Assembly: GCF_037977235.1 (NCBI RefSeq)
Contig: NZ_CP150276.1
Coordinates: forward strand, 1,550,001 to 1,614,000
DNA: 64,000 bases
Direction: 5' to 3'
From: Paenibacillus sp. FSL K6-0276
GTDB taxonomy: Bacteria; Bacillota; Bacilli; Paenibacillales; Paenibacillaceae
The notes under the pieces were generated by a model. It saw nothing but the letters and a program-made list of their open reading frames with translations, did no database searches and was not told the origin of the DNA. A program made the translations under genes and the position numbers. Positions 3,295 through 19,947 of this stretch are shown here, piece after piece. Within the stretch, counting starts at the first letter, position 1; each line of letters begins with the position of its first letter.

Positions 3295-4866
3295 TTATTT
3301 GCTCTCTGAAAAATTATAAACAGTATTCCTATATTCAGAAGGTGAGGTACCGACCCGTGCTTTAAAAATACGACTAAAATAGCGAGGATCTGTATAGCCA
3401 ACCATTTCAGAAATTAGCCTGATATCTAAATCTTCCCTTTCTCGAATTAATCGAATGGCGTCATTGATTCTTAAATCTATAAGGTATTTCATCGGAGAGT
3501 CACCCGTATATTTTTTGAATACTCTAGTAAGATAAGTGCCATTAAAATTAAAGTGCTTTGACAAATCTTCAACTTTAATATCCTCTGAGAAATGTACCTT
3601 AAGATATTCGATCAATTGATTAGCTAATTCCTCATTACTGAAATATTCTAAAGTTCGAGATTGTATTAATTCATGAATAATATTCCATATTTCCTCTTTT
3701 ATTGATGTTAAACTGTTTGCAGTAAATAATAAAGTATGCAAAACATACTCAACATGAACAGAATTGACAATAGCGTCAAGTTGATAGTGGTGAGTTAGGA
3801 GATTTATGATTTGCATCAAATTTTGTTCGACTGTTTTTTGGGGCAACATTCTATTGTCATATTCCTCTAGTATTGAAAAGAGGTCTTTTTTTAAGATATT
3901 TAAGTTATTGGAACTCATACTTATTTTAAGTTTATTTTGGATGTTTGGTTCTAAATAGGGTGATATTGGTTTATCTTGTATATTTCCACACGAATATACG
4001 ACTTTTTTTCCTATAACAAAGTTATTTTCTAATTTCCAACGTATTTTTTGAGAGGTATCAGGAATTTTATCATAGGAAATAGGTTGGTTATTATGGCATA
4101 TGCTAATGGCTGTGATGTCGATACAGGACTGCAACTTGTGTAGAAATTTATTCGCTAAATGATGTATTTCTTCGTTTGAACTATTCTTGTCTATAGTGAA
4201 AACAATATACTTTTGATTAGGACATAGTTCATTGATAAGCCAAACTTGTTGATCACTTCCAAAAACATGAACAAATAATTGATCCCAGTTTATTTTTTCC
4301 CATAAAGAAGAAATGCTAGAAACCATGCTACTAGATAGAGAATTATGAAATAAATTACCTAAACCGACAAGAAATAAGACAAAATAATTTTGTTTATAAC
4401 AAAAAGGCAATGAATGAATATCTTCCATTCCATTCAATGTGGATAATAACATATTAGATTCGTTAGATTTATATATTTTGTTAAGAGACGAATATAATTT
4501 TTCTAATAAAACGGTAAGTTCCTCTGCATCGAGAGGTTTTAGAAGATATTCTTTTACACCTAATTTAATCGCTTGTTGCGCATATTCAAAATCACTATAG
4601 CCACTTAATATAACAATGTGTAAATTTGGATCTAACTCTTTTAATTCCTTAGTTAATTGCAATCCATTCATAACAGGCATCTGTATATCCGTAAATACAA
4701 CATCTGGTTTTAATTCTTTATACATATGAAGTGCTTCTAAACCATTCGAGGCAGTTCCTATAACTTGAAAGTTCATTTCTGAATTTGTTATTTCATTTAC
4801 AGTATCTTGTAGAATAATTGGTTCATCCTCAACGACCAATACAGTGTAAATTCTTGTGTTTGTCAT
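3295..4866 (-). CDS. YesN-like AraC-type response regulator
   Basis: 523 residues. An N-terminal receiver (about 5-125) has VVEDEP, the phospho-acceptor Asp in DVVFTDIQMP (near residue 59), SGYSDFEYA and LLKPLDAEEL. A long middle region of unknown fold is followed by a C-terminal pair of AraC-type HTHs (about 415-515) with FNGTYLTRVFKKYTGDSPM and VGYTDPRYFSRIFKARVGTSP. This is the YesN architecture, which activates sugar-transport operons in Paenibacillus and Bacillus. The ATG overlaps the 3' end of the kinase gene by 4 bp, so the two are translationally coupled. Its probable target is the 52-bp element found before the binding-protein gene and before the second SLH gene. Confidence 0.93.
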   Translation of the reverse strand: MTNTRIYTVLVVEDEPIILQDTVNEITNSEMNFQVIGTASNGLEALHMYKELKPDVVFTDIQMPVMNGLQLTKELKELDPNLHIVILSGYSDFEYAQQAIKLGVKEYLLKPLDAEELTVLLEKLYSSLNKIYKSNESNMLLSTLNGMEDIHSLPFCYKQNYFVLFLVGLGNLFHNSLSSSMVSSISSLWEKINWDQLFVHVFGSDQQVWLINELCPNQKYIVFTIDKNSSNEEIHHLANKFLHKLQSCIDITAISICHNNQPISYDKIPDTSQKIRWKLENNFVIGKKVVYSCGNIQDKPISPYLEPNIQNKLKISMSSNNLNILKKDLFSILEEYDNRMLPQKTVEQNLMQIINLLTHHYQLDAIVNSVHVEYVLHTLLFTANSLTSIKEEIWNIIHELIQSRTLEYFSNEELANQLIEYLKVHFSEDIKVEDLSKHFNFNGTYLTRVFKKYTGDSPMKYLIDLRINDAIRLIREREDLDIRLISEMVGYTDPRYFSRIFKARVGTSPSEYRNTVYNFSESK

Positions 4867-6665
4867 AGTTTACCTCCTATTGTAATAGAAACTCCTCGAT
4901 CAGGTAATGGTTCAATTTTAAAAATGACATCATCCCCATATAATATTTTTAACCTTGCAAATATGTTAATTAACCCCATACCGTTAATCTGACTATTTGA
5001 AATATCACGGTAAATATTGAATTCCGAAAACTTCTTTTGAAGCTCTACTAATTTTTGCTTTGTAATGCCAATGCCATTATCGGAAACTGTAATAAACCAG
5101 TTATTTTGATCAATTGTGCCTTGTATATCTATTATCCATGGAGGAGAAATTTCGGTAGCAAATTTTATACTATTTTCTACTAGTGGTTGAATAATTAATC
5201 TTGGAATTTCAATGTTATATAATTCTTCAGGAATATTTAATTGGTAGATCAAATTATCCTGAAACCTGATCTTCATAAGGTTTAAATAGTTGTAAGTGTA
5301 ATCGAGCTCATCTTTGATAAGTACAGGGCTACTACTAGAACTCGACACATAGCGTAGCATAGTTGAAAGATTGGTGCATATGTCTACGATCCCTTTATTG
5401 GCAGATTCTTTTCCCATAATTTTGATGATAGCTAACGTATTATATATAAAATGAGGATTCATCTGTGATTGCATGGCAGTAAGACGAGATTGTATTTCAA
5501 GTGATCTTGCGGCAACAACAGCATCTAACGAATCTTGCAATTGGTCGCACATTTTAACAAATACATGGTGTAAACCTTCAATTTCAACAATACCGCTATT
5601 CATATTCTGAGGAAGATGGATGGGTAACTCATCTAATTTTAGTTTCTTCATATTGGTATGTATTTGTCTGATTGGATTTGACAGTTTTCGAGATAACAAA
5701 TAATTTATTACCATTGTAAGACATACAGCAATAATACCAATCAAAGATAAAGTGTTACGTAATGCATTAATTGGAGCTAGAAGCTCATCCTCAGGTTCTG
5801 TTGCGAGTACCGTCCAACCCGAAAAATCTGACTGAGTTCCAGCAATAATTAGTTTTTCATTATCGATCGTATTTTCATTTTTTAGAATAAATGAGGAATT
5901 AGTTGATGGAGTAATTGAAGCAAGGTAATGATCTAAAGACAACTCAGCATTATTTAAAGGATAGATTAATTGCTGATTTGAATCATAGATAATGATTTGT
6001 TTAGTATTTTTAGATAATAATTTATTCAAGTTTGTATTAACAATATCAATTATTTCTTGATAGTTGACTTGAGTTTCAATTATTGCAGTAGGTTTAGGAT
6101 CAGAAACATTCTCAGAAAAAGAGCGATAAAGAGAGACTACTTGTGTATCTTTGCTAGCCCAAGCGGTAACATGTGGAGGAGTAATTAACTTTTTACCGTC
6201 CAGCTTAAGGATGTCAGTAATTAGTGATTGATTATCTAATTTACTTGTATCTATTTTGTTTACGAAGTAATTATGACCAAATCCAGCATAATTTCCATTC
6301 AGATTTAGAATATTTAGTTGATAATTTTTATAGTGCTGAGGTTCATAAATTAAGGTAGCAAGGTAATTAAATTCTCTTTGTAGCTTATAATCATGCGTCT
6401 CAAATAGCTTACTGTCAGTAAAGATAAGACTTTTGGCTTGTTCGGCAAAGAGCACTCTTTTTTGCATAGTGTTCATCTCAGCTAACACCATATCTAATTC
6501 CTGAATAGCTGTATTAGATAACTGGGAAAGCGATTCTGTGGCTCTCTCTTCTAATATAGTCGATGTATATTTATAAAATATGACCATGAAAAGAGAAATG
6601 GTTACAATCATAATCGTTGTGTAATTTTTAAAAAGTTTAAATTGAATTTTGTTTAGTTTTGACAT
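4863..6665 (-). CDS. YesM-like sensor histidine kinase
   Basis: 600 residues. TM1 lies at about 13-33, followed by a large extracytoplasmic Cache-like sensor (about 35-295), TM2 (about 300-322) and HAMP. The His_kinase dimerisation domain carries the phospho-acceptor in NPHFIYNTL (near residue 400), and the ATPase domain has DNGIGI and GMGLINIFARL. It is the membrane partner of the overlapping YesN-like regulator and would sense an extracellular sugar or the loaded binding protein. It is divergent from the ABC-transporter genes and shares their 280-bp regulatory region. Confidence 0.93.
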   Translation of the reverse strand: MSKLNKIQFKLFKNYTTIMIVTISLFMVIFYKYTSTILEERATESLSQLSNTAIQELDMVLAEMNTMQKRVLFAEQAKSLIFTDSKLFETHDYKLQREFNYLATLIYEPQHYKNYQLNILNLNGNYAGFGHNYFVNKIDTSKLDNQSLITDILKLDGKKLITPPHVTAWASKDTQVVSLYRSFSENVSDPKPTAIIETQVNYQEIIDIVNTNLNKLLSKNTKQIIIYDSNQQLIYPLNNAELSLDHYLASITPSTNSSFILKNENTIDNEKLIIAGTQSDFSGWTVLATEPEDELLAPINALRNTLSLIGIIAVCLTMVINYLLSRKLSNPIRQIHTNMKKLKLDELPIHLPQNMNSGIVEIEGLHHVFVKMCDQLQDSLDAVVAARSLEIQSRLTAMQSQMNPHFIYNTLAIIKIMGKESANKGIVDICTNLSTMLRYVSSSSSSPVLIKDELDYTYNYLNLMKIRFQDNLIYQLNIPEELYNIEIPRLIIQPLVENSIKFATEISPPWIIDIQGTIDQNNWFITVSDNGIGITKQKLVELQKKFSEFNIYRDISNSQINGMGLINIFARLKILYGDDVIFKIEPLPDRGVSITIGGKL

Positions 6666-6721
6666 AAGTTATATTCTCCATAGTTTCATCGGACAAGGAC
6701 GTTTGTTTTGAGAGTAAAAAA

Positions 6722-6737
6722 ATGCAAGCGCTATCAG
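6722..6737. promoter_or_regulatory. cre box (CcpA operator)
   Basis: TGCAAGCGCTATCA (6723-6736) fits the catabolite-responsive element consensus TGNAANCGNWNNCA at every fixed position. It lies in the divergent region between the yesM-like and binding-protein genes. It is closer to the kinase start (57 bp away), so it could repress either or both transcripts when a preferred sugar is present. Confidence 0.75.
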
Positions 6738-6823
6738 TTTATTTGAAATATATGATCCAGTTAATATGCTATAACATGTTACAGCTGTATTCTTGCATGT
6801 GCCATATAAATGTGTCAAGTTCT

Positions 6824-6875
6824 AAAAGTCCACCATGTAGGTTTCTTTTATCTATTCTAGAGAATAAATAATTTG
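6824..6875 (+). promoter_or_regulatory. Shared 52-bp promoter element, copy 1 (putative YesN-like activator site)
   Basis: The block beginning AAAAGTCCACCATGTAGGTT and ending ATAATTTG matches 46 of 52 bases of a block at 19698-19749. It holds an inverted repeat TATTC-N4-GAATA whose arms are unchanged between copies while the spacer differs. It abuts a plausible promoter, TTGTTT (6873-6878), 18 bp, TATAAC (6897-6902), so it sits where an AraC-type activator would contact RNA polymerase. That the YesN-like protein is the binder is inference. Confidence 0.7.
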
Positions 6876-6902
6876 TTTATTGTTTATGTAACGACTTATA
6901 AC
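6873..6902 (+). promoter_or_regulatory. Putative sigma-A promoter of the sugar ABC transporter
   Basis: TTGTTT (6873-6878) and TATAAC (6897-6902) with an 18-bp spacer, directly after the shared 52-bp element and about 43 bp before the GTG start of the binding protein. Confidence 0.45.
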
Positions 6903-6944
6903 TCATAGTCGATGAAAAGCATTCATAAAAGGGGGACTTTCGAA

Positions 6945-8264
6945 GTGAAGAAAAATCTACGAACAACTTTTTCAAAAGCATTAACAGGGGTTATGCTTAC
7001 AAGTCTTGGTTTAAGTTTATTAACAGGCTGTGGTGAAAGTTCTAATACGGGAACTTCGACATCAAATGTAAGCGGTGCCAAAAAAACTGATGTTACACTT
7101 TCTGTAATGGCTTCAGCAGGCTGGATTAGAGATGTCGATAAAAAGTTGGCAGAGAAATTTAAAGAACAGACGGGTATTAAGATTGATTTTCAAGAAAATC
7201 CTGGTGATCAATATGAGAATGTATTAATGACCAGACTTGCAACTGGAGAAGGTCCCGATATATTTATGGCAGAATCAGGATTATCTTTACTAAAAGTTCA
7301 ACCAAATAAATATGCTGTAGATTTGTCCAATGAGTCATGGGTTAGTAAGTATCCTGACTATGCGAAGGTTCAGGCTAGTTATGATAATAAAGTTGTAGGT
7401 TTTACTACATGGGGAAGAGATTTTAGTGCGATGCTCTACAACACTGAAATTTTTGAAAAATATGATCTGAAAGAACCTACAAGCTATGAAGAATTTAAAC
7501 AGGTTAGTGAAAAATTGCTTGAGAATGGCATTACACCAGTCTATTTCCCAGGTAAAGAGGAATGGTATAATGCGCAAGCATTCGATGCTGCAGTAAATAT
7601 TGAATCTAAGGCAACTGGATCTTATGAGAAATTAAATAATAACACTATGAAATATGCAGAATCAGAAGAAGCTTTGAAGTATTTAAGAAATCTAAAAGAT
7701 AGCGCTGATAATGGATATTTTGGAGAAAACTTCTTATCAGATACTTATGATCAAGGTATTGCAGGTTTGGCAAGTGGTAAATATGCGATGTGGCAAGGGT
7801 GGTCTACTTATGTAAATGATATTGAAGCAGCTGGTGGTCCATCGGCTGACAAATTTCTAGCCTTCCCTGCCCCATACGGAGATGATTTGAAAACTTTAGC
7901 AATGAACGGAACAGGAATGACGCATCTAATTAACAAGGACAGTAAAAATATTGATGCCGCCAAACAATATTTTGAGTTTTTAGCAGAGCCAGAGAATTTG
8001 CAGGAATATTATGATGGTAGACCCGATCTTCTGGAACCGACTTTAGAAGGTGCAACAGCCAATCCTCCAGCAAATTACAAGCATGTCTTAAAAACTGTAA
8101 ATGATAAAACATTGTTAACCTTGCCTCAGTCTATTTTATATAACGGAGCAGATGGAAGTCTTGGGAAAAATGTACAGAGTATGTTTTTTAATATGATGAC
8201 ACCAGAACAGGTGCTTCAATCCCTTGATGCTGCTAGAGCTAAAATGTTTGATGCAACGAAATAG
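6945..8264 (+). CDS. Extracellular solute-binding lipoprotein of a sugar ABC importer (family 1)
   Basis: The GTG at 6945 is preferred: AAAGGGGG (6928-6935) lies 9 bp before it and the protein then begins with a clean lipoprotein signal, KKNLRTTF, a hydrophobic stretch and the lipobox LLTGC (Cys 29). The in-frame ATG at 6912 would add 11 residues without a ribosome site. The mature protein (about 410 residues) shows the family-1 fold: VTLSVMASAGW, NVLMTRLATGEGPDIFM, GLASGKYAMWQGWSTY and LFFNMMTPEQVL-type ends. It captures an oligosaccharide at the membrane for the two permeases downstream. No ATPase gene is present, so an MsmX-type shared ATPase is expected, as is usual for this family. Confidence 0.93.
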   Translation: MKKNLRTTFSKALTGVMLTSLGLSLLTGCGESSNTGTSTSNVSGAKKTDVTLSVMASAGWIRDVDKKLAEKFKEQTGIKIDFQENPGDQYENVLMTRLATGEGPDIFMAESGLSLLKVQPNKYAVDLSNESWVSKYPDYAKVQASYDNKVVGFTTWGRDFSAMLYNTEIFEKYDLKEPTSYEEFKQVSEKLLENGITPVYFPGKEEWYNAQAFDAAVNIESKATGSYEKLNNNTMKYAESEEALKYLRNLKDSADNGYFGENFLSDTYDQGIAGLASGKYAMWQGWSTYVNDIEAAGGPSADKFLAFPAPYGDDLKTLAMNGTGMTHLINKDSKNIDAAKQYFEFLAEPENLQEYYDGRPDLLEPTLEGATANPPANYKHVLKTVNDKTLLTLPQSILYNGADGSLGKNVQSMFFNMMTPEQVLQSLDAARAKMFDATK

Positions 8265-8283
8265 AAGTTTCTGATTAATGCAG

Positions 8284-8335
8284 AATCCCTTTTGCGAATA
8301 AATTTAGATTTATTTTAACAAAAGGGATTTTGACA
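8284..8335 (+). terminator. Intercistronic hairpin between binding protein and permease genes
   Basis: AATCCCTTTTG (8284-8294) pairs with CAAAAGGGATT (8319-8329), with an inner AATAAA/TTTATT stem, followed by a short T stretch. Such hairpins commonly cause partial termination or 3' protection, so that the binding protein is made in excess over the permeases. Confidence 0.7.
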
Positions 8336-8372
8336 ATAGGATAAGATACACATAGAAAAGGTGATGGATGGA

Positions 8373-9263
8373 ATGAAAACCAATACTTTTATTCATAAGA
8401 CTTTGTATCCTAGACGAATGGTGTTTCCAGCATTCATCCTATATACAATTCTCTTCATGATTCCTACTGTAATGGGAATATATTATGCCTTTACAAATTG
8501 GAATATATATAGTGATGCTATTCATTTTAATGGACTGGATAACTTTAAAGTTCTCTTCATAGATCAGTCGTTTAAGTACGTGAGACCCATTACAAATACG
8601 GTTGTATTTGCTTTCTTTACATCTGTGTTGGAAGCAGTCATCGGTTTATCATTAGCTATTATGCTTAATAGAAAAATATTTGCGCGAAATACACTGCGTT
8701 CTATTTTCTTTATGCCACAAGCTATATCGACAATTGTAATCGGTATCATTTTTACGACAATCTTACATCCAACAGGTCTTCTGAATAATTTTCTTGATTT
8801 AATCGGACTAGACTTCTTACAGCAAAAATGGTTGACGAATACAGCAACCGCAATGCCTTCTGTTATAGCCGTAGAGGTTTGGCGATATTTTGGACTTAAT
8901 ATGGTTATCTTCTTAGCAGGATTACAAGGCATCGATCAGAGCTATTATGAGGCTGCTCGAATTGACGGAGCGAATAGCTGGCAGCTATTTATAAAGATAA
9001 CCATTCCGTTTATTATGCCGGCAGTTACGATCAATACCGTTCTAAACATCGTACATGGATTTAGAGCTTTTGATATTGTATATGCTCTAACCAACGGAGG
9101 ACCAGGCAACGCGACAGAGGTTATTGCTACAATGGTGTACCGCGAATACTCTGCAGGAAACTATGGTTTATCTAATGCGATGAATTTAATTCTACTTATT
9201 ATGACCACTGTTATATCTGTGTTAGTTAATAGAGCTACTAGTAAGAAGGAGGTGACCCTGTAA
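8373..9263 (+). CDS. Sugar ABC transporter permease (MalF/UgpA type)
   Basis: 296 residues from ATG 8373, which sits after AAAAGGTGAT (8357-8366); GTG 8361 and ATG 8364 are in frame but overlap that site. Six hydrophobic segments are visible (for example MVFPAFILYTILFMIPTVMG and FFMPQAISTIVIGIIFTTIL). The EAA loop that docks the ATPase is present (EAARIDGANSWQLFIKITIP). This is the first inner-membrane subunit of the importer, and its stop codon overlaps the start of the second permease (TAATG). Confidence 0.94.
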   Translation: MKTNTFIHKTLYPRRMVFPAFILYTILFMIPTVMGIYYAFTNWNIYSDAIHFNGLDNFKVLFIDQSFKYVRPITNTVVFAFFTSVLEAVIGLSLAIMLNRKIFARNTLRSIFFMPQAISTIVIGIIFTTILHPTGLLNNFLDLIGLDFLQQKWLTNTATAMPSVIAVEVWRYFGLNMVIFLAGLQGIDQSYYEAARIDGANSWQLFIKITIPFIMPAVTINTVLNIVHGFRAFDIVYALTNGGPGNATEVIATMVYREYSAGNYGLSNAMNLILLIMTTVISVLVNRATSKKEVTL

Positions 9264-10096
9264 TGAGTAGAAAAAAAGTGTTTTCTAGCATATTGCAAAT
9301 CGTATGTTGGGGCTTTTCGCTCGTTGTATTGGTGCCTTTTATTCTCATCTTATTGAATTCACTTAAACCTTCTGCAGAAGCTGCCTTTTTCTCCATGTCG
9401 TTTCCTTCAGAAATCAAGTGGGATAATTATGTTAATGCGTTTGTAAAGGGACATGTATTAAGAGGATATTATAACAGTTTGGTTATGTCTTCTGTATCAG
9501 CGGTATTAGGTGTTGTCTTTGCTGCTCTTGCTTCTTTTATCATAGTAAGATCGACAAATTTAACGAATAAGCTATTATATGGCTATTTCTTCTTCGGAGT
9601 GGTCGCAACTGGCAATATGGTTACGACTACGATGATCATGAGTAAGCTGCATTTAATGAATAGTATAACAGGTGCGATATTGCTTCTTGCTACGCAAGGG
9701 ATATCCTTTGCAATGCTGTTATTTACTGGATTTATTAAGGGTATACCTAGGGAATTAGATGAGGCTGCTGTTATGGATGGAGCAAAGGCAGAAACTCTAT
9801 TCTTTAAAATTATTTTTCCACTATTAAAGCCAGTTACAGTTACAGGTTTCATGTTGAATTTCTTGGGTGCGTGGAACGGCTTCGAAACTCAGTTATATAT
9901 CTTAACGGATAGTAAGAAATGGGGAGCTATTCTATCCATGTATGGCGTATATGGTGAATTCTCGTCACCTTGGTCTAAAGACTGGGGACTTATATCTGCG
10001 TATATTGTCTTAACCATCATCCCTGTCCTGATCGTTTATTTAATTGGGCAGAAATATATTATTGAAGGTATGACAGCTGGAGCTGTGAAAGGTTAG
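9263..10096 (+). CDS. Sugar ABC transporter permease (MalG/UgpE type)
   Basis: 277 residues; the ATG overlaps the preceding TAA by one base, behind a perfect AAGGAGGTGA (9246-9255). It has six membrane segments and the EAA loop DEAAVMDGAKAETLFFKIIF. It pairs with the preceding permease in a heterodimeric channel fed by the lipoprotein at 6945. The operon ends here, and the SLH glycosidase begins 84 bp downstream without an obvious terminator between, so read-through is possible. Confidence 0.94.
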   Translation: MSRKKVFSSILQIVCWGFSLVVLVPFILILLNSLKPSAEAAFFSMSFPSEIKWDNYVNAFVKGHVLRGYYNSLVMSSVSAVLGVVFAALASFIIVRSTNLTNKLLYGYFFFGVVATGNMVTTTMIMSKLHLMNSITGAILLLATQGISFAMLLFTGFIKGIPRELDEAAVMDGAKAETLFFKIIFPLLKPVTVTGFMLNFLGAWNGFETQLYILTDSKKWGAILSMYGVYGEFSSPWSKDWGLISAYIVLTIIPVLIVYLIGQKYIIEGMTAGAVKG

Positions 10097-10180
10097 TGCA
10101 CTGTAAGTTAAGTTAGTTATAGCGTTCTAGCAAAGGCCTACGATTTTCGAAAAATACTTATGAATGTGAGGGATGTTGGA

Positions 10181-13100
10181 ATGAGTAAGTTTGTTCCTAG
10201 AAAAATATTACACTTGATTCTGTGTTTTTCATTGATTATAGGCTCCTTCGTTGGCGCTATTCAAAATGTAAGCGCGAACGGCTTGGAGGGGAACATTTAC
10301 AAAACGTTTTTTGTATCTACAACAGGCAACGATGATAATGATGGGTCTTATGAACACCCGTATCTGACCATTGCAAAAGCTCAACAAGCTGTTCGTGACA
10401 TCAATACAGCTATGACTGGCGATATTTATGTTTATGTTGCGCCGGGCAATTATTACATCCATGACTCGTTGAAATTCGACGAGCGGGATTCAGGTTTTAA
10501 TGGGCACCAGGTCTTGTATAGAAGCCTCGGAGCTCCTGGAAGCGTGCATTTAATTGGGGGAGACCCTGTTACAGGCGGTTGGGTACAGACGACTGCTTCC
10601 GATGTGGGTGGTACGGATTATTTAAGTGAGTTGTCATCTTCTGCGGAGGGCAAAGTGTATAAAGTTCAACTTGATCCCAAAAGATACAATTTTAACCAAC
10701 TTTATATTGGCTCCCAAGGAGATGTTGGCTTCGAAAAAGCCACCATGGCTCGTTTTCCCAACAAGGTGGAGGATCCTAAGTTCCAAGCGTGGAACGGCCC
10801 ATATTTATTTTCAACTAACGGTTCAAACAAAGATATGGGTTACAAAGCAGGCGACCTGACTCCGGAGCATAAAAAGGCTTTGCAAGATGCTCAGGCAAGT
10901 GGCAGGTCTGAAATTGCTCAACTTTTCGTTTTTGACTGCGGAGGAAGTGCTTTTGAGTCTAACATTCTTCCTATTAATCGGATCGATACAACAAATAGTA
11001 AATTGTATTCGCCGTACGATCCTAAGCATCCCGAAATGTATATTACTAAATACAACATTAATGAAAATGGGCGTTATTTCTTACAAGGAAACATTTCATT
11101 TCTGGATTCACCCGGCGAGTACTACTATGATAAAGTCACAGGTTGGCTTTATTACTATCCGACAGACGCTGACCATGTTGCAGGCGTCGAGGATATGAAC
11201 AACTTGAATGTTGTCGTTCCGACGACGAAAGAAATTATTCGTTTGCAGGGAACGGATAAACCCGCAATTTCGGATTGGGGCAAAACTCCGGATTCTACAA
11301 AACAAGTTAGCAACATCACTTTTGATGGATTTACGCTCGAAGTGACAGAATCAGATAATTATATCGTAGATGGTTGGAGCTACGGTGAAACTTGGTATGC
11401 TGGCGGTACGGCAATTCCATTCGCACCACCAGAGGCACAAGGCAGCACACAGCCATATTATTCTGATTATTCTGTTCGTCCCGCATATATGTATGGCGGA
11501 TTTACATTGATCAATACCAACCATATCACGATTCAAAACACTCGTATTACCAATATGGGATTGTTTGGAATCATCGTTTGGCGTGATAACACATACAATA
11601 CATTCCAAAATCTTGCTATAGATAACACTGGAATGGGCGGCATTAACACGGATGGCGGTTATCCGGGTGTTGGTAAATACAACAACAACCACACCTTCTA
11701 CAATCTGTCCATTCACCATGTTGGACAAATCGATGCTTTTGGTGCTGGATTGCAAGTGATGAATACAGGTTTTAGCAATTTTAAGAACCTCGAAATTTAC
11801 TATGCTCCTAGGCGTGCAATTTCGTTTGTTGGTCAAGCACAGACGATGCCTAGTGCTAGTCCAAATTTTGACCCGGTGAGGGACGTATATAACTACGGCA
11901 ACCGATTTGAATATATTTATGTTCATGATGCGGAACAAGATACCGCTGAGGATAGCGCTATATTCATTGGAGCTCTATTCAAAGGCAATGATGTACAGAG
12001 AAAATACGGCACAAAAGACCCGTCAAAGGCTATTAATCCAGATACAGGACAAGCATATGGTGGTTTAAAGGCGGGGAACATCTTTAATCAGATTGTAACT
12101 TCGGAGATTGGTAGTGCACCTGACGTTCGCGATATGAATACGGTTCATGGTATGGACTTGGCTATGGGCGCTACAGGTACTTATCTTTCTAATATTGAAG
12201 GAGTTAACAATCAAAGTGCTAATTTACGTATTGAACCGACTCAAAATGGTGATGTATTTTATGTCGATAACGTAAACAGCGATTATCCATCATCTGCGTA
12301 TAATCCACTCCCGTATTACAAGTTCGATAATTCGAAGATGGATTATGCCCGTATCGGTATCAATCGTCAAGATTTTCCGTTTACTTCAGAATTGTATAAT
12401 CCGACACCGCCGGGAATTCAATTGGACAGCTATTTCTCGGATGACTTTGAGGGCGGAAAGATTGACATATCCAAATGGTCTAATGAAAAAGGAACTCCGG
12501 TCGTTTCCAGCGCTTTTAGAGCTGAAGGTCCGTTTGATGGTAATTACTCTCTATTCATCAACGGTGGCGGTGCGGGAAATTCGGACGGTGTTGTATTAAG
12601 CAGAACATTCAGCAACGACTTAAACAAAACCGTAACCGGCTGGTTCTTTGATAAACGCCGTGATTATGCTAATCATGACTACAACGAAGGCTTGAACAAC
12701 TCAGATGTGATGGTTCAATCCTATATGAGGGTGGATGACAATACTTCTGCCAACCATGTTGGGTTAGGAATTAACGGTCATAAGAGCAAGGACTATTTCA
12801 GTTATATTGATGGTACTACTGAAAAGTTAACGAACATACCACGTAGCTTTGGTTGGCATCAGTATAAGTTTGATTACTCGACACCTGGTCAAGTTCATCT
12901 TTATATTGATGATGAGCCTGTAGCAACCCTTGATAGAAAATCTTTTAATTATATTGGAATGGGGAATTACGACAGCATTGGCACTCCTGGCAAGAACACA
13001 GGTATGTCCTATTTCGATGATATCGATGTGTACGGCGGTGTAGACGCTCCACCAGTGCAGCCTCCTCAATCGCAGCCGGATTCAATACCGCCATATACGC

Positions 13101-15769
13101 CACCGGCACCACCTACTTCGATCCTCGACTGGGATTTTGAAAGCGGCAGTATGCCAGTAGGTGAGATTGCAAGTACGAATGACGGACAGACTGCAACATT
13201 CAGTACGTATGGTTTTACAACGTTCTGGGGATCTAATCCGAATTTGAAAGTTGTAGCGAACCCAAAGGCAGATGCGATAAACAATAGCAATCATATGATG
13301 ATCGTAAATAATGAGTCCTCACAGTATTATGAGGCAGCGCCTACAAAGGATTGGAGCAATTACACGCTTACGTTAAAATTTGCGCTTGCAAGCGAATATA
13401 AAGATACTGAGCATCCTTTACGTTTCTTTGTTTATACTCAGCCGATCTTTAAACCTGGTAACATGACATACCAACCAGCCGGATACAATGTTGCTTTTAA
13501 TAAAGGCAGTAACAAAATGGAGTTATACCGTGCTGACCAAAATGCTAATGGAACCCATAGCAACACGCCAATTGTTGGATCAACAACAGCTGATTTGCCT
13601 GCTAACCTATTCAATGCAGTTACGGACAAAGGCAGTTGGCATACCTTGTCCATCACAGTAGGTGAAGGTACCGTATCTGCAACACTTGATGGAAATACCA
13701 CGGTTACAGGGCAGGATTCAACCTATACAAGCGGCTTCTTTGGTTTTATTCCTTGGGATGGTGGCAATGCAAAGTTTAACTTATGCTTAGACGATATTAG
13801 TATAAATACCAATTCGCCGAATATGGTGTACGATGCGAATCTCAAGCTGGGTAACGCAAAGCTCAACGGGGATTTCAATCCTATGTATACATCCTATCAG
13901 GCGTCAATAGTAAACAAGGAAGAGCCGGTTACATTGGTTAAGCCATCTTCAGACAATGGCGCAACATTCTCTATTCTACTGAATGGTGCAGATATTACGA
14001 GCATGTTCGAAGATACGGCACCGATGCTGGATACAGAAATGCCGGAGGATACGGCACCGATGCTGGATATAGAAATGCCAGAGGATACGGCACCGATGCT
14101 GGATATAGTAATGCCGGAGGATACGGCAATACCAGAGGATATGGTGACACCAGAGGATACGGGAATGCCACAGAATATGGTAGCGCCGCAGAGTACGGCA
14201 ACACCGCAGCCACTGCCTTTAATTTACGGTCCGAACAAGCTTACAATCGTTCAGAAATCAAAAGACGGTGGAATTACTAACTATGTCGTTGACATTTACA
14301 AGCCGTATAAATCGGTGAAAATTGAGGAAGTTTCACCGATTTCCGTAGAGGTCGGCACACAGCCAACACTTCCGGCAACGGTTGCGGTAACATTTGACGG
14401 CGGCATCCCCCAACAAATTCCGGTGAAGTGGAATAAGCTGAACAATCAAATTCTTAATACCCCGGGAACATACATGGTTAATGGTTCATTGGAGGGAATG
14501 TATGAGAAAACGACCATCACCGTCTATATTAACGGCGTAACGTCAATCGGCTCATTATCTCCAGTATCAACAAGGATTGGGGAAGCGCCTGTATTACCTA
14601 CATCAGTTTCGGTGCAAATGATGGAGAATGGTCAGGACGTAAGTACGACATTACCGATTACTTTTGATAATATTGACCCTTCTTCATATTCAAAAGCAGG
14701 AACATTTATAGTTGTTGCCTATGTTGATGGAACTAGTACTACTAGATTGCAAGAGGTTGTTGTCTCAGACAAAGTGGCTCAGGACAAGACGCTTGTGAGC
14801 ATAACAACACCTGCACCAATTACAGGAGTAAAGAACGGAACAGCCAAGACAGCAGAAGCTCTTGGATTGCCTGCTACAGTAGAATTGGTTACCGATGCGG
14901 GCAAAGTGATTGCTAGTGTGACCTGGGATGTAGGTGCTTCAAGCTATGATCCAGCGAAAAAGGCAGCACAAAACTTCACTGTAGATGGAATAGTAACGTT
15001 GCCTATAGGTGTGGGAAATCCAAACAAAGTAGACTTGACGACTAGTATCGGTGTAACTGTAAAAGCAGGCACGACGCCAACGCCGGAACCAACACCAGAT
15101 CCAACACCAGATCCAACAGCAACACCAGGTCCAACAGCAACACCAGATCCTAAGCCTACGCCAAAACCAGAAGATGATAAAAAGCCAACTAAGCCAACAG
15201 ATCCAGTAAAACCAACTGAGCCAGAGACTCCAAAAGTAGATCTGTCTGATATTTCAGATCACTGGGCTAAGGCTTCTATTGCAAAAGCAGTTGAACTTGG
15301 TTTTGTAAGTGGTTACGAAAATGGAACTTTCAGACCGAATGGTACTGTAACACGTGGTGAATTTGCAACCATGTTAGCTAGAGCACTGAAATTGGATTCT
15401 GTTGATTCTGAGTTTAGTTTTACGGATCAAGGCCAAACACCAGTATGGGCTCAGCCATTCATTCAAGCACTTTCTAAAGCAGGTTTCATTTCTGGATATG
15501 AAGATGGTACATTCAGTGCGAATAATAAAATAACTAGAAGTGAATTAGTCGTTCTTATTGTTCGTGCACTTGGTCTTGAAGTGAATCCAAAGGCAACACT
15601 TGCGTTTGTTGATGCAGATCAAACTCCAGCATGGGCAAAACCTTATGTAGCAACAGCAGCTAAAGCAGGTTTGATTAAGGGGAATGGGAATGGCAAATTT
15701 AATCCGAATGCCTCTTCAACCAGAGCTGAAGCAGTCACTTTGATATTAGCTATGCTAAACACTAAATAA
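10181..15769 (+). CDS. Giant SLH-anchored secreted beta-helix glycosidase (GH141-like)
   Basis: About 1862 residues from ATG 10181 (GTGAGGG 8 bp upstream; ATG 10160 is also in frame). Signal peptide to about residue 32 (NVSANG). Residues about 38-740 resemble GH141 beta-helix enzymes: FFVSTTGNDDNDGSYEHPYL, DSGFNGHQVLYRS, LDSPGEYYYDKVTGWLYYYP, then repeated TNHITIQNTRITNMGLFGI-type coils. Known GH141 members are alpha-L-fucosidases or xylanases. Two LamG-like beta-sandwiches follow (about 750-960 and 977-1215), a cadherin-like domain interrupted by a 36-bp repeat tract, bacterial Ig-like domains (about 1370-1530), the DKTLVSI Ig repeat (about 1535-1627), a Pro/Thr linker and three SLH domains for wall binding. 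The last 320 residues are nearly identical to the end of the protein at 20008. Substrate specificity is inferred only from family resemblance. Confidence 0.85.
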   Translation: MSKFVPRKILHLILCFSLIIGSFVGAIQNVSANGLEGNIYKTFFVSTTGNDDNDGSYEHPYLTIAKAQQAVRDINTAMTGDIYVYVAPGNYYIHDSLKFDERDSGFNGHQVLYRSLGAPGSVHLIGGDPVTGGWVQTTASDVGGTDYLSELSSSAEGKVYKVQLDPKRYNFNQLYIGSQGDVGFEKATMARFPNKVEDPKFQAWNGPYLFSTNGSNKDMGYKAGDLTPEHKKALQDAQASGRSEIAQLFVFDCGGSAFESNILPINRIDTTNSKLYSPYDPKHPEMYITKYNINENGRYFLQGNISFLDSPGEYYYDKVTGWLYYYPTDADHVAGVEDMNNLNVVVPTTKEIIRLQGTDKPAISDWGKTPDSTKQVSNITFDGFTLEVTESDNYIVDGWSYGETWYAGGTAIPFAPPEAQGSTQPYYSDYSVRPAYMYGGFTLINTNHITIQNTRITNMGLFGIIVWRDNTYNTFQNLAIDNTGMGGINTDGGYPGVGKYNNNHTFYNLSIHHVGQIDAFGAGLQVMNTGFSNFKNLEIYYAPRRAISFVGQAQTMPSASPNFDPVRDVYNYGNRFEYIYVHDAEQDTAEDSAIFIGALFKGNDVQRKYGTKDPSKAINPDTGQAYGGLKAGNIFNQIVTSEIGSAPDVRDMNTVHGMDLAMGATGTYLSNIEGVNNQSANLRIEPTQNGDVFYVDNVNSDYPSSAYNPLPYYKFDNSKMDYARIGINRQDFPFTSELYNPTPPGIQLDSYFSDDFEGGKIDISKWSNEKGTPVVSSAFRAEGPFDGNYSLFINGGGAGNSDGVVLSRTFSNDLNKTVTGWFFDKRRDYANHDYNEGLNNSDVMVQSYMRVDDNTSANHVGLGINGHKSKDYFSYIDGTTEKLTNIPRSFGWHQYKFDYSTPGQVHLYIDDEPVATLDRKSFNYIGMGNYDSIGTPGKNTGMSYFDDIDVYGGVDAPPVQPPQSQPDSIPPYTPPAPPTSILDWDFESGSMPVGEIASTNDGQTATFSTYGFTTFWGSNPNLKVVANPKADAINNSNHMMIVNNESSQYYEAAPTKDWSNYTLTLKFALASEYKDTEHPLRFFVYTQPIFKPGNMTYQPAGYNVAFNKGSNKMELYRADQNANGTHSNTPIVGSTTADLPANLFNAVTDKGSWHTLSITVGEGTVSATLDGNTTVTGQDSTYTSGFFGFIPWDGGNAKFNLCLDDISINTNSPNMVYDANLKLGNAKLNGDFNPMYTSYQASIVNKEEPVTLVKPSSDNGATFSILLNGADITSMFEDTAPMLDTEMPEDTAPMLDIEMPEDTAPMLDIVMPEDTAIPEDMVTPEDTGMPQNMVAPQSTATPQPLPLIYGPNKLTIVQKSKDGGITNYVVDIYKPYKSVKIEEVSPISVEVGTQPTLPATVAVTFDGGIPQQIPVKWNKLNNQILNTPGTYMVNGSLEGMYEKTTITVYINGVTSIGSLSPVSTRIGEAPVLPTSVSVQMMENGQDVSTTLPITFDNIDPSSYSKAGTFIVVAYVDGTSTTRLQEVVVSDKVAQDKTLVSITTPAPITGVKNGTAKTAEALGLPATVELVTDAGKVIASVTWDVGASSYDPAKKAAQNFTVDGIVTLPIGVGNPNKVDLTTSIGVTVKAGTTPTPEPTPDPTPDPTATPGPTATPDPKPTPKPEDDKKPTKPTDPVKPTEPETPKVDLSDISDHWAKASIAKAVELGFVSGYENGTFRPNGTVTRGEFATMLARALKLDSVDSEFSFTDQGQTPVWAQPFIQALSKAGFISGYEDGTFSANNKITRSELVVLIVRALGLEVNPKATLAFVDADQTPAWAKPYVATAAKAGLIKGNGNGKFNPNASSTRAEAVTLILAMLNTK
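14009..14208 (+). repeat. 36-bp tandem repeats inside the first SLH gene
   Basis: Three near-identical 36-bp units (14009-14044, 14045-14080, 14081-14116) encode EDTAPMLD followed by a variable pair and MP. Shorter degenerate units (PEDMVTPEDTGMPQNM) run to about 14208. The tract separates two halves of what looks like one cadherin-like domain (NGADITSMF and LIYGPNKLTIVQKSKDGG). Confidence 0.85.
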
Positions 15770-15783
15770 CGAACGCTTTGGTA

Positions 15784-15815
15784 CGACGCACCGTCCTATA
15801 TTGGCGGTGCGTTGT
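15784..15815 (+). terminator. Hairpin after the first SLH gene
   Basis: ACGCACCG (15786-15793) pairs with CGGTGCGT (15805-15812). There is no proper T run, only GTTATAACTT, so termination may be partial. The same hairpin occurs after the second SLH gene (about 24730-24760) because the segment is duplicated. Confidence 0.55.
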
Positions 15816-15860
15816 TATAACTTTAACTTTTCATGAGGACAATTTCAGGAGGAAAAGATA

Positions 15861-18239
15861 ATGATATTGGAAAATAAACGAATGCGGGAAAGCTTTGACC
15901 AGAACTGGATGTTCCATTTAGGTGATCTACCTATCATGCATGCTGTAAAAGGAGGGATGACAGGTGGGTTAACTGACTGCGAGCAGATAGCTGAAGGGGA
16001 ATGGCTGAAGATCGCTTATTTTGATGAAAGAGAACAGTCTGTCATGAACGATCGGGAGTGGAAGAGTATCGATCTTCCACATGACTGGTGCGTGGAAGGG
16101 AATTACGTAAATGACGGGGGTAAAGTCAAACATCATAAGAGCCACGGTTATCTCCCTGTTGGAATTGGATGTTATCGTAAAGTTTTCGAGATTCCTATGG
16201 AAGATTTGGGGAAGAAACTATCGATTGAGTTTGATGGTGTCATGCGAAACTGTACCGTATGGGTTAACGGGCATTTATTGGGAACTCATCAAAGTGGGTA
16301 TACAGGCTTCTGTTATGACATTACGGATATTGCGCGTTACGGCGATGAAGGGAAGAATGTCATTTTCGTAAAAGTTGATGCTCGTGATTATGAGGGCTGG
16401 TGGTATGAAGGATGTGGGATTTACCGCCATGTATGGCTAGATAAGACGGACAGACTTCACGTAGGAAGACATGGAACTTATGTGACCACGCCCGTAGTAG
16501 GCAAAGATGAGGCCACGGTTAACGTATCAACAAACGTACATAACGAACATCCTCATGTCGTGAATTGTATAATCAAGACTTTAATCGAGGACGGAACGGG
16601 TCAAGTGGTCGCTACCAGCTCAGAGAACATAACCATTCAAGGAGACAGTCAAACCGATGTTGAAACTGTAATGACATTGATGGAGCCCATGCTCTGGTCG
16701 CCTGAGAAGCCTTACCTTTACGAAGTGATTACGGAAGTTTATGACGCTAATGAGCGAGATGTAATGGATGTTTATAGGACTCCATTGGGCGTGCGAACGA
16801 TAGAGTTTACCACGGATAGGGGATTTTACTTAAATGGTGAACAGTATTTGATCAAAGGAACTTGCAACCATCAGGATTTCGCTGGCGTAGGAGTTGCTCT
16901 GCCTGACCAAGTAACCGAATATAAAATCAAACTTCTCAAAAGTATGGGGTGCAATGCATACAGATGCGCTCACCACGCTCCTTCACCTGAGCTCCTGGAT
17001 CTATGCGACAGAATGGGTATGCTCGTGATGGATGAGAACAGGAAACTGGATATATCTCCGGACGGGATCGCAGATCTGAAAGAGATCCTTTATCGAGATC
17101 GAAACCACCCTTCCATCATTTTGTGGAGCATGGAGAACGAGGAAATATTAGAAGGCACGATTATGGGAGCGAGAATGCTTGAAACGATGTCACGAATTAC
17201 ACGTGCCATTGATCCTACTCGCCTTACTATTGCATGCATGAATCACGGGTGGAATGATGGAGGATACAGTAATTCTGTAGATATAACCGGATATAACTAT
17301 GGCCAAAGAGAAGATCAATATCTTATCGATCATGAACAATTTCCAGAGCGGATCATGATCGGGAGCGAGAGTACGAGCTGTACGACGACACGTGGAATCT
17401 ATGAGAATGATGATGTTAAAGGATACTGTTCTTCCTATGGAGATCAGATACCGGAGTGGTCATGTTCGCATGAGAAATCATGGCAGGATGTGGTGAATCA
17501 CCCTCATTTGACGGGCATATTCGTTTGGACTGGATTCGATTACAGAGGAGAACCAACACCTTATGAATGGCCGTGCATCGGGTCTCACTTCGGGATCATG
17601 GATTACTGCGGATTCCCTAAGGATGCGTATTATTACTATAAAGCCGCTTGGACGGAAGAACCGATGGTGCACATTATGCCTCACTGGAACTGGCAGGACA
17701 AAATCGGTGAAGAGATTGATGTATGGGCGTATAGCAATTGCGAGACTGTAGAGTTGGTACTTAACGGTCATAGTCTGGGTGAGAAGAGCGTGGATCGAAA
17801 TTCACGAATGGAGTGGAAAGTCTGCTACGCTCCCGGTGAATTGATAGCGATAGGGAAAATAGCCGGAAAGGAAATCACGAGAAAGGTTGTGGCTACAACA
17901 GGAACTCCTGATCGTATTCGTTTGGAGCTGGATAAAAACGAAGTGAAAGCGAATGGTACGGATATTGCTATGATTAAAGTTTCTATACTGGATGCTTCTG
18001 GTGAAGTTGTTCCTATGGCAGATAACGAGGTTATGTTCACAATCGAAGGTCCAGGCAAAATTATCGGTGTTGGAAATGGTGATCCAAGCAGTCACGAACC
18101 TGATAAAGCGAATCGTAGACGAGCATTCAACGGACATTGTTTAGCGATAGTTCAGGCTAACAAGGAACCGGGAGATATTGTGATAAGAGCAACTTCGGTT
18201 TCTCTTCAAGCTGCCGTGGCAGTAATACGAGTGGAATAA
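15861..18239 (+). CDS. Cytoplasmic GH2 beta-galactosidase-type glycosidase
   Basis: 792 residues; ATG 15861 behind AGGAGGAAAAG. No signal peptide, so it acts on imported oligosaccharides. Domain order: sugar-binding jelly roll (about 5-185, with DLPHDWCVEGNYV and CGIYRHVWL), Ig-like domain (about 200-315), TIM barrel (about 318-610) and C-terminal beta domains (about 615-790). The general acid/base lies in HPSIILWSMENEE and the nucleophile Glu in MIGSESTS, the standard GH2 pair. The length is typical of this group. It fits as the intracellular step after the SLH enzymes and the ABC importer. Beta-galactosidase is the commonest activity of such sequences, but other beta-glycosides are possible. 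Confidence 0.9.
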   Translation: MILENKRMRESFDQNWMFHLGDLPIMHAVKGGMTGGLTDCEQIAEGEWLKIAYFDEREQSVMNDREWKSIDLPHDWCVEGNYVNDGGKVKHHKSHGYLPVGIGCYRKVFEIPMEDLGKKLSIEFDGVMRNCTVWVNGHLLGTHQSGYTGFCYDITDIARYGDEGKNVIFVKVDARDYEGWWYEGCGIYRHVWLDKTDRLHVGRHGTYVTTPVVGKDEATVNVSTNVHNEHPHVVNCIIKTLIEDGTGQVVATSSENITIQGDSQTDVETVMTLMEPMLWSPEKPYLYEVITEVYDANERDVMDVYRTPLGVRTIEFTTDRGFYLNGEQYLIKGTCNHQDFAGVGVALPDQVTEYKIKLLKSMGCNAYRCAHHAPSPELLDLCDRMGMLVMDENRKLDISPDGIADLKEILYRDRNHPSIILWSMENEEILEGTIMGARMLETMSRITRAIDPTRLTIACMNHGWNDGGYSNSVDITGYNYGQREDQYLIDHEQFPERIMIGSESTSCTTTRGIYENDDVKGYCSSYGDQIPEWSCSHEKSWQDVVNHPHLTGIFVWTGFDYRGEPTPYEWPCIGSHFGIMDYCGFPKDAYYYYKAAWTEEPMVHIMPHWNWQDKIGEEIDVWAYSNCETVELVLNGHSLGEKSVDRNSRMEWKVCYAPGELIAIGKIAGKEITRKVVATTGTPDRIRLELDKNEVKANGTDIAMIKVSILDASGEVVPMADNEVMFTIEGPGKIIGVGNGDPSSHEPDKANRRRAFNGHCLAIVQANKEPGDIVIRATSVSLQAAVAVIRVE

Positions 18240-18256
18240 AATTGATATCCGATTTG

Positions 18257-18279
18257 TCCCTGGCACTTAGTGCCAGGGA
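18257..18279. repeat. Perfect 10-bp inverted repeat after the GH2 gene
   Basis: TCCCTGGCAC (18257-18266) and GTGCCAGGGA (18270-18279) around a 3-nt loop, with no T run after it. It could act as a transcript-stabilising hairpin or as a weak terminator between the GH2 and oxidoreductase genes. Confidence 0.6.
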
Positions 18280-18345
18280 GTCACGATACGATTAGAGATA
18301 GAGCGGGTACAAATCGAACTAAAAAAATAACAGGAGGTCCTTCTT

Positions 18346-19560
18346 TTGTTGAATATTGGTGTTATTGGATACGGCGTGCGGATCGACATGCTGATGGATG
18401 ATTTGTTCGCGCTACCTTATGAAATCCAGATCAAGGCAGTAGCCGATCCCGACCATGAGCGCGTGCGGGCTTTAATGAAGAAAGACGGCTCCAAAGAATC
18501 GATGCACCAAATGGGAATCGATAAAATCGACGGACTTTTGCGCAGCTGCGAGATGAATCCGGATACTATTACCTTTTATACGGATGCGGACGAAATGCTG
18601 GACAACGAAAAACTGGACGGCGTGATCGTAGGTACGAACTGCAACATGCATACTTATTTCGCCAAAAAGGTGCTGGATCGCAATCTGCCGTTGTTTTTGG
18701 AAAAACCGGTTGCGACTACGATGGAGGATCTGAGAACGTTAGCCGAATGCGAAGCGAAAGCAACGGCTCCCACAGTTGTTTCCTTCCCGTTACGCGTTAC
18801 ACCGCTGGTGCAGGAGGTCAAGCGTATTCTGGATGCCGGCACGATTGGCAAGGTTGAGCATGTACAGGCGTTCAACGATGTTCCTTATGGATTTGTTTAT
18901 TTCCACGACTGGTATCGAGATGAATCCGCTTCTAAGGGGCTTTTCCTGCAAAAGGCAACGCATGATATCGACGTCATCAACTATTTGCTGGGTGAAGAAC
19001 CCGTGAACGTTTGTGCCATGAAATCTAAACAAATTTACAAAGGTGACATGCCTGCCGGCCTTCGATGCAGCGAATGTGACAAATGGGAAACCTGTATGGA
19101 CAGCACTTACAATATCACTTATGTGCGCAATGACACTCCGCGTAACGACTATTGCAGCTTTGCGGTAGACACCGGTAACGAAGACTCCGGCAGCATGATT
19201 GTGAAATACGAAAGCGGCATGCACGTCATGTATTCGCAGAACTTCTTTGCCCGCAAAGGGGCTGCGCGCCGAGGGGCTAGGTTATATGGCTATAAGGGCA
19301 CCGTGGAATTCAATTTCGCCACCAATGAAATCAAAGTATTTGACCATATGAGTGATAAAGTAACCACTGTGCGTCTCGATGATCAAGGCTCGCGTCATGG
19401 CGGCGGTGATATTGTACTCATGCGGAATTTTGTACACCTGATGCAGGGCAGAACCACCGAATCGGTCGCCCCTTTGAAAGACGGGATTCGCAGCGCCCTT
19501 GTATGTCTGCAAGCCAAAGCGTTTTCCGAAAGCGATAAATTTTATTCCGTTACGTTTTAA
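18346..19560 (+). CDS. Gfo/Idh/MocA-family oxidoreductase
   Basis: About 404 residues, starting at TTG 18346 or 18349 behind CAGGAGGT (18331-18338). The N-terminus is a Rossmann fold (NIGVIGYGVRIDMLMDD), with the family EKPVATTMEDL motif near residue 120 and the catalytic-site region KATHDIDVINYLLGEEP. A cysteine cluster, CSECDKWETC (about residues 243-252), is of the kind seen in one branch of the family. The enzyme would oxidise or reduce a sugar or cyclitol using NAD(P). It lies between the two SLH genes, so a role in converting the released sugar is likely but unproven. Its codons are visibly more G/C-ending than those of its neighbours, which may indicate a separate origin. Confidence 0.9.
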   Translation: MLNIGVIGYGVRIDMLMDDLFALPYEIQIKAVADPDHERVRALMKKDGSKESMHQMGIDKIDGLLRSCEMNPDTITFYTDADEMLDNEKLDGVIVGTNCNMHTYFAKKVLDRNLPLFLEKPVATTMEDLRTLAECEAKATAPTVVSFPLRVTPLVQEVKRILDAGTIGKVEHVQAFNDVPYGFVYFHDWYRDESASKGLFLQKATHDIDVINYLLGEEPVNVCAMKSKQIYKGDMPAGLRCSECDKWETCMDSTYNITYVRNDTPRNDYCSFAVDTGNEDSGSMIVKYESGMHVMYSQNFFARKGAARRGARLYGYKGTVEFNFATNEIKVFDHMSDKVTTVRLDDQGSRHGGGDIVLMRNFVHLMQGRTTESVAPLKDGIRSALVCLQAKAFSESDKFYSVTF

Positions 19561-19598
19561 TTGGTAGAAGTCGAAGTCAAATCGTGATCCTAATGCAC

Positions 19599-19633
19599 AA
19601 GGCAGATAAGGAATATACCTTATCTGCCTTTAT
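19599..19633 (+). terminator. Rho-independent terminator after the oxidoreductase
   Basis: AAGGCAGATAAGG (19599-19611) pairs perfectly with CCTTATCTGCCTT (19618-19630) around AATATA, followed by TATT. It separates the oxidoreductase transcript from the promoter of the second SLH gene. Confidence 0.85.
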
Positions 19634-19697
19634 TAACGAACTAATCTAACTTAATCGGCCGATACAATTCGACGATTTCTTCTAGCCTTTTGGTTCA

Positions 19698-19749
19698 AAA
19701 AGTCCACCAAGTAAGTTTCTTTTCTCTATTCTAGCGAATAAACAATTCG
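19698..19749 (+). promoter_or_regulatory. Shared 52-bp promoter element, copy 2
   Basis: The block beginning AAAAGTCCACCAAGTAAGTT matches the element at 6824-6875 at 46 of 52 positions, including the TATTC-N4-GAATA inverted repeat. Downstream, at the spacing seen in copy 1, is a poor -35 (TTCGGA-like) and an AT-rich -10 (TAATTA, about 19771-19776), as expected for an activator-dependent promoter. It lies about 260 bp before the second SLH gene. Confidence 0.7.
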
Positions 19750-19812
19750 GATACTATTTATAGAGTGAATTAATTAAATATAGCCAGAAATAGGAATTTT
19801 TTTTGTAATAAA

Positions 19813-19828
19813 ATGAAAGCGATTACAA
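19813..19828. promoter_or_regulatory. cre box (CcpA operator) upstream of the second SLH gene
   Basis: TGAAAGCGATTACA (19814-19827) fits TGNAANCGNWNNCA at every fixed position and is close to the strongest known cre sequences. It lies downstream of the presumed promoter, where bound CcpA would block elongation. Confidence 0.8.
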
Positions 19829-19882
19829 GTAAAAAGGGAGGGATCCGGTAACTGATTTAAGCGATGAGAGGAGGTGGTGTAT

Positions 19883-19947
19883 ATGTGATTGCTAAAAAAC
19901 AGTTAGGAGACGTTTTTAATTTGCAGTTCATTATTATGAATCTATGA
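19883..19947 (+). promoter_or_regulatory. Leader with strong ribosome site and minimal or short upstream ORF
   Basis: AGGAGGTGGTG (19869-19879) is the strongest ribosome-binding sequence in this leader, yet it is followed by ATGTGA (19883-19888), a start codon immediately followed by stop. The overlapping GTG at 19885 opens a 20-codon frame ending at 19947 (begins MIAKKQLGDVF). Either could act in translational control of the SLH gene starting at 20008; this is inference from position alone. Confidence 0.35.

Follow-up and report, generated by a model that had tools for sequence, protein, structure and literature searches.

The 64,000-nucleotide stretch of Paenibacillus sp. FSL K6-0276 analysed here (contig NZ_CP150276.1, positions 1,550,001 to 1,614,000 of the forward strand; hereafter the window) carries two copies of a short DNA element, one in front of the genes of a sugar ABC importer and one in front of a gene for an SLH-anchored glycosidase, with a YesM/YesN two-component system encoded beside the first. 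From the comparison of related loci, we consider it very likely that the element is the operator, an activator site, of the YesN-type response regulator encoded 2 kb upstream, and the same comparison suggests which letters would be read by YesN. The site is probably an AraC-type tandem site and not a palindrome, composed of a core, RTCCAC, a box before it, a second half-site and a -10 hexamer at 50-52 bp. More tentatively, we propose a recognition code for YesN proteins, in which the core lies 50-52 bp before the -10 hexamer and residue 499 in the second recognition helix, Arg or Lys, would set the third base of the core (C versus A or G); on this code we are almost evenly divided, leaning slightly towards doubt. 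The features on which the argument rests are the following.

3295..4866 (-): YesN-type response regulator, 523 aa, the proposed binder, with a receiver, a long middle part and an AraC-type DNA-binding domain
4863..6665 (-): YesM-type sensor histidine kinase, 600 aa (Pfam His_kinase, PF06580, 2.8e-21; HATPase_c, 1.6e-08)
6818..6858 (+): proposed operator copy 1, with AGTTC at 6818-6822 and the core GTCCAC at 6828-6833
6841-6845 and 6850-6855 (+): proposed second half-site of copy 1, GTTTC and ATCTAT
6878..6883 (+): predicted -10 hexamer TATTGT, 50 bp after the core
6945..8264 (+): solute-binding protein (SBP) of the ABC sugar importer (Pfam SBP_bac_1, 3.4e-26)
19692..19732 (+): proposed operator copy 2, with GGTTC at 19692-19696 and the core GTCCAC at 19702-19707
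19715-19719 and 19724-19729 (+): proposed second half-site of copy 2, GTTTC and CTCTAT
19752..19757 (+): predicted -10 hexamer TACTAT, 50 bp after the core
20008..24714 (+): SLH-anchored, glycoside hydrolase family 95 (GH95)-like glycosidase (Pfam SLH; GH95_cat, 3.2e-13; F5_F8_type_C)

Results

The element occurs twice in the genome

Bases 6824-6875 and 19698-19749 are identical at 46 of 52 positions, the same figure as in an earlier sequence-only reading of this DNA, and the repeat extends to 6819-6886 versus 19693-19760 (57/68 identical); beyond this block the flanks show no likeness by eye, as that reading had also stated. When the whole genome, a single contig of 6,113,266 bases, was searched with 64 bases of copy 1, copy 2 was found at E = 3.1e-14 and the next match at E = 0.63, and a two-part pattern of the element gave 2 matches versus 0 for the reversed control. 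The sequence-only reading had reasoned that a dispersed repeat would occur many times away from carbohydrate genes; with only two copies in 6.11 Mb, a dispersed repeat or mobile element is ruled out and the idea of a shared regulatory site is supported. Among 100 genomes of the same genus, our own included, two copies each were present in our genome and in G044 and G081, and the element was absent at E <= 0.001 from the other 97. In a pattern scan of a named genome collection, a single assembly was matched, Paenibacillus sp. UBA10396, on two of its contigs. Additional targets in our genome, sought with the upstream half-site at 3 or fewer mismatches, were found at chance level (83 + 61 places versus 76 + 107 for the reversed control), and the three one-mismatch places among the matches listed all lie within reading frames (L006, L007 and the end of a yesN gene in L044).

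In G081, the SLH gene at 10160-15769 is missing at this place and both copies are kept, 7.2 kb apart, indicating that the copy pair is independent of that gene. Among the three genomes G000, G081 and G044, which are mostly only 2-5% apart here, 12/280 columns vary around copy 1 and 31/448 around copy 2, whereas the 68-base block contains no variable column in either copy (P = 0.033 for copy 1 and 0.005 for copy 2, with block limits chosen after the repeat was seen). This conservation is supporting, not decisive, evidence for a functional site.

A core box at a fixed distance from the -10 hexamer accompanies related YesN proteins

Of 295 genomes of the family, 34 yielded relatives of YesM, and of 100 genomes of the genus, 7 yielded relatives of YesN; 45 loci were annotated, 44 of them with an importer gene, and L104, which offered none to test, was dropped before the counts. 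In a YesN protein tree, ten loci group with that of the window and its two near-identical relatives (L016 and L017), among them the paralogous loci L032 and L035 of our own genome and the G081 locus L034. All ten other loci of this group carry RTCCAC before the importer gene, nine of them at -105 to -113, counted from the start of the longest open frame, and L097 at -61; the longest frame of L097 starts early, and its start was moved by hand for the 5-mer count. With the window counted, TCCAC is the sole 5-mer present at -135 to -60 in 11/11 loci and 4/4 lineages. When the sites were aligned on the core, a TATAAT-like hexamer was found at +50 to +52 in 12/12; its mean score at +51 is 3.4, compared with shuffle maxima of 0.47 (sd 0.34), and none of 500 shuffles reached the mean.

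We then scored each locus for the core plus a -10 hexamer at +50 to +52 and counted a locus as passing if 3 or fewer of 100 shuffles did as well. All 11 loci of the window's YesN group passed at 1 or fewer of 100 shuffles, compared with 3/32 loci with a more distant YesN, namely L102 (CTCCACGG) and L127 and L130 (CTCCACAT). As a control, we used other YesM loci of our own genome; of 20 upstream regions taken from them, none passed and none holds RTCCAC. These regions were picked by script from 19 of 30 fetched loci (L036-L065), the importer gene being unrecognised or the region incomplete at the remaining 11, and in some cases the gene that follows encodes a permease or regulator instead of an SBP. 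An independent test on 392 genomes of the order yielded 14 loci in genomes of another family; L192 lacks an importer gene in the stretch covered and was dropped, and 11 of the other 13 passed. Their cores are RTCCAC in four, GTCCATCG in five near-identical loci, and ATCCAGCA, ATATACAT, ATACACAT and TTACACAT in the others. Family-wide searches with the YesM proteins of L029 and L035 at E <= 1e-110 returned no locus beyond those already in the set.

At L106, L108, L109, L111 and L123, which mostly encode a short YesN, boxes resembling RTACAAA or GTGCAAA lie ahead of the importer gene, 50-51 bp before TATAAT or TACAAT; 6-18 of 100 shuffles were as good, and these loci perhaps share the architecture with another core.

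Shape of the predicted site and putative second operators

A further box lies 9-10 bp before the core, read by eye as GTTC in the window, as GGTCA in two lineages and in partial form elsewhere. For a second half-site in direct orientation, an offset of 22-23 bp ranked first overall, with each lineage left out in turn. A second half-site 22-23 bp downstream of the first is only moderately supported, and less certain than the core. In the predicted sites, the distance to the -10 hexamer is fixed and the proposed downstream half-site ends about where a -35 would lie, which would correspond to class II geometry.

When 29 loci were searched with their own half-site, a second operator followed by a -10-like hexamer was found in the window and in L097 and L101; a second match is also present in L186, with 3 mismatches and no -10-like hexamer. 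The second operator of L097 lies 6.6 kb further on, before a second SBP gene, and the pair is alike at 64/70 positions. In L101, it is divergent from yesM and precedes GH98 and GH95 genes, and this pair is alike at only 24/60 positions, yet the boxes and TACAAT are kept. Having two such operators in one locus is thus not unique to the window.

Residue 499 of YesN covaries with the third base of the core

In a table of 31 rows, including the near-identical sets window/L016/L017, L183-L187 and L188-L190, core base 3 is C in 23/23 loci with Arg at residue 499, and A (five) or G (two) in 7/8 loci with Lys (Fisher P = 3e-6, uncorrected for kinship). We take residue 499 to be the equivalent of Arg96 in MarA. 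When the columns of the DNA-binding domain are ranked against core base 3 on mutual information over entropy, residue 499 comes first. L180 and L181, with Lys and A, sit inside an otherwise Arg/C lineage of the tree, so the change probably occurred at least twice. In the loci L031, L100-L103 and L191, the core is preceded by GGTTAAA[AT]AT and followed by TACATTTAC; it reads TTRCAC in five of them and CTCCAC in L102. The table covers loci whose sites could be placed with confidence, which leaves aside L105-L131 (27 loci, mostly with a YesN of about 255 aa).

The YesM/YesN system

YesN combines a receiver domain (Response_reg, 5.6e-29) with an AraC-type double helix-turn-helix (HTH_18, 6.9e-20; HTH_AraC, 7.1e-20), as is characteristic of YesN-type regulators, and among the solved chains that match it are AraC itself and the AraC-type domains of response regulators. 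Its partner kinase is encoded in the same operon, the yesM frame overlapping yesN by 4 bases. The sequence-only reading had named YesN as the likely binder, which is supported by the conservation of core and spacing within the YesN group and by the residue-base covariation; it had placed the YesN gene next to copy 1, where the adjoining gene is in fact yesM on the minus strand, followed by yesN. A possible promoter for the two genes abuts the operator:

6813..6818 (-): TTGACA of a possible divergent yesMN promoter, with AAGAAT (consensus scan, 10/12)

As this TTGACA touches the operator, YesN may also control its own genes. The call is weak, with 2 sites in the scan versus 2.3 expected in shuffles. 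A sigma-70 scan did not list the promoters proposed here among its calls.

Cre-like sites

Each copy had been described as lying close to a perfect cre box. This is the case for copy 2, and the site near copy 1 has one mismatch to what we take to be the cre consensus.

6723..6736 (+): cre-like site with one mismatch, upstream of copy 1 at a distance of about 88 bp
19814..19827 (+): cre-like site TGAAAGCGATTACA, a perfect match, downstream of copy 2 at a distance of about 65 bp

The two sites thus lie on opposite sides of the element relative to copies 1 and 2. In G081 and G044, the mismatched base of the first site is T, fitting the consensus, and the second site has one mismatch. In four loci, a cre-like motif separates the core from the proposed second half-site; in the window, it lies outside the operator. 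In 4/11 loci, the cre-like match of a de novo motif search lies inside the SBP frame. A full match to the cre consensus is also present at 8735-8748, inside the first permease gene.

Discussion

We propose that two AraC-type DNA-binding domains of YesN, arranged head to tail, would occupy half-sites with a spacing of 22-23 bp. In each half-site, the first helix-turn-helix would read the upstream box (GTTC in the window) and the second the core RTCCAC. Because the downstream half-site ends where a -35 would lie, with the -10 hexamer 50-52 bp after the core, phosphorylated YesN would act as a class II activator that brings in RNA polymerase. From copy 1, the importer genes and the genes that follow them (6945-19560) would be induced, and copy 2, located behind a hairpin, would extend the same control to the GH95-like SLH glycosidase (20008-24714). 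YesM might sense the glycan or its products, and the cre-like sites may allow CcpA to dampen both promoters. The presence of GH95 and GH2 proteins here and of GH98, GH95 and GH101 matches in related loci suggests fucose- or galactose-bearing glycans as the substrate.

Several observations weigh against this interpretation. The YesN group that holds the ten sites has a low tree support of 0.326, and once the new loci are added, it takes in proteins with the cores TCCAT, TCCAG or TAYAC. Over the wider region from -260 to 0, AATAA and ATAAT are also found in 11/11 loci, and the de novo motif search ranked a cre-like motif first in both promoter groups, and not TCCAC. Among the loci of the other family, L180 and L191 score weakly (43 and 9 of 100 shuffles as good, respectively). 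The second half-site was equalled by 8/300 shuffles, and offset 22 ranks third in the window lineage. For the recognition code, L102 breaks the Arg/Lys rule with Lys and a CTCCAC core, plain mutual information places residues 492 and 503 above 499, and the covariation was noticed after the sites had been placed, with many rows coming from near-identical genomes. Lastly, the 88% identity of the two window copies also fits a recent duplication.

An alternative site within the block was put forward in the sequence-only reading, which took the inverted repeat TATTC-N4-GAATA for the operator.

6853..6866 (+): palindrome TATTCTAGAGAATA, overlapping the last bases of the proposed second half-site as well as the expected place of the -35

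The repeat itself is there: its 5-bp arms are found in both window copies and are kept in G081 and G044, and in copy 1 they form part of a palindrome of 14 bp. It could serve a dimeric regulator other than YesN, such as the LuxR-type one that the window encodes at 1586-2248, the rest of the block being neighbourhood, and the 3' half of the 52 bases is indeed nearly as well kept as the 5' half (4 versus 2 of the six differences). However, TATTC-N4-GAATA is absent from 28/28 other YesM/YesN loci within 62 bp after the core, with at best 3 of 10 mismatches, and the part common to the relatives is the 5' core. Because of this absence, we rejected the palindrome as the operator and regard a dimeric non-YesN regulator acting through it as very improbable. 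In the proposed tandem YesN site, the left arm of this repeat falls on the last bases of the second half-site.

Copy 2 might instead be a leftover of a local promoter duplication without a function of its own. The locus contains other duplicated segments whose identity, 90-95%, is near that of the element, and the L097 pair is similarly alike. Set against this are the invariance of the block among the three genomes while its flanks vary, the -10-like hexamer that copy 2 has at the same distance, and the L101 pair, which keeps little beyond the functional letters; its low likeness with boxes and -10 retained argues against mere duplication. We consider a functionless copy highly improbable. An RNA-level element, i.e. 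a leader or riboswitch, would account for the inverted repeat, but the element lies upstream of the predicted -10 hexamer and would not be transcribed from that promoter, and Rfam at the gathering score found no family in 6600-7000 or 19540-20050, so that we dismissed it as barely conceivable.

The AraC-type class of site to which we assign the YesN operator is known, and what is new, as far as our literature search goes, is the sequence, the spacing and the residue-base link. Passages of PMC3870299 describe, for Bacillales, Bacteroides and Enterococcus, AraC-family regulators of rhamnose utilisation with predicted sites that are likewise direct repeats of half-sites; the period is 21 bp there, whereas 22-23 bp fits best here and the regulator is a YesN-type response regulator. 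XydR of Clostridium cellulolyticum, a 532-aa response regulator with an AraC-type domain that acts on plant-polysaccharide genes, is comparable; its binding to regions upstream of two targets was demonstrated by shift assay, and that part of its table of common sequences given in the excerpt of PMC3572039 holds nothing resembling RTCCAC. For pneumococcus, portions of PMC11034029 report motifs of YesN-type regulators that were also derived by comparing upstream regions and differ from ours, namely the candidate CTWWWWWWAG for RR07 and, for YesN, no clear repeat and only a conserved AATTC. The CuaS/CuaR system with CuaD of Ruminiclostridium cellulolyticum likewise links a YesN/AraC response regulator (538 aa) to a sugar ABC importer (PMC10384115, in part); the main text of that paper does not contain the words 'binding site', 'EMSA' or 'promoter'. 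Passages of PMC10766802, PMC9722767, PMC11253607 and PMC6882843 hold nothing that decides the site. Our search, which covered few subscription journals, found no paper on a Paenibacillus YesN binding site, a YesM/YesN operator regulon or a YesN mobility shift. There is also work on XynDC and AraPST of Geobacillus.

Binding sites of YesM partner regulators are scarce in the searchable literature, and in our genome alone the YesM-type kinase family is represented by 35 matches, of which 33 lie in frames of at least 500 aa. A defined operator, a fixed spacing and a residue-base covariation would offer a way to predict the glycan genes under such systems. Should the recognition code hold, the operators and regulons of many uncharacterised YesM/YesN systems could be read from genomes. 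In the window, a YesN operator at copy 2 would explain how the glycosidase behind the hairpin is co-regulated with the importer.

Additional features of the window

1586-2248: LuxR-type response regulator
8361-9263 and 9263-10096 (+): two permease genes of the ABC importer (Pfam BPD_transp_1)
10160..15769 (+): SLH-anchored protein, 1869 aa, with GH141-like and beta-helix matches under the Pfam cut-offs
15861..18239 (+): GH2 glycoside hydrolase (Pfam)
18346..19560 (+): Gfo/Idh/MocA oxidoreductase (Pfam), the last gene ahead of the hairpin
19600-19629: hairpin, read by eye and not listed by the terminator scan

The start of the SBP gene (GTG at 6945) was picked for a Shine-Dalgarno-like AGGGGG, as was that of the GH95-like gene (ATG at 20008), whose frame is open from 19951. 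The first SLH gene starts 63 bp past the permease gene and contains 18/36-bp tandem repeats at 13993-14205. The C-terminal parts of the two SLH genes (14780-15373 and 23701-24318) share 90% DNA identity and their N-terminal Pfam domains differ, a pattern that suggests duplication or gene conversion. The second SLH gene is followed, at 24788-25275, by a decayed copy of the GH2 gene whose pieces are 94-95% identical and whose inner part is gone. At 60750-64000, a tandem array of repeated genes of about 1 kb, in 3-4 copies, runs up to the end of the window, with most pieces 82-98% alike and some 64%.

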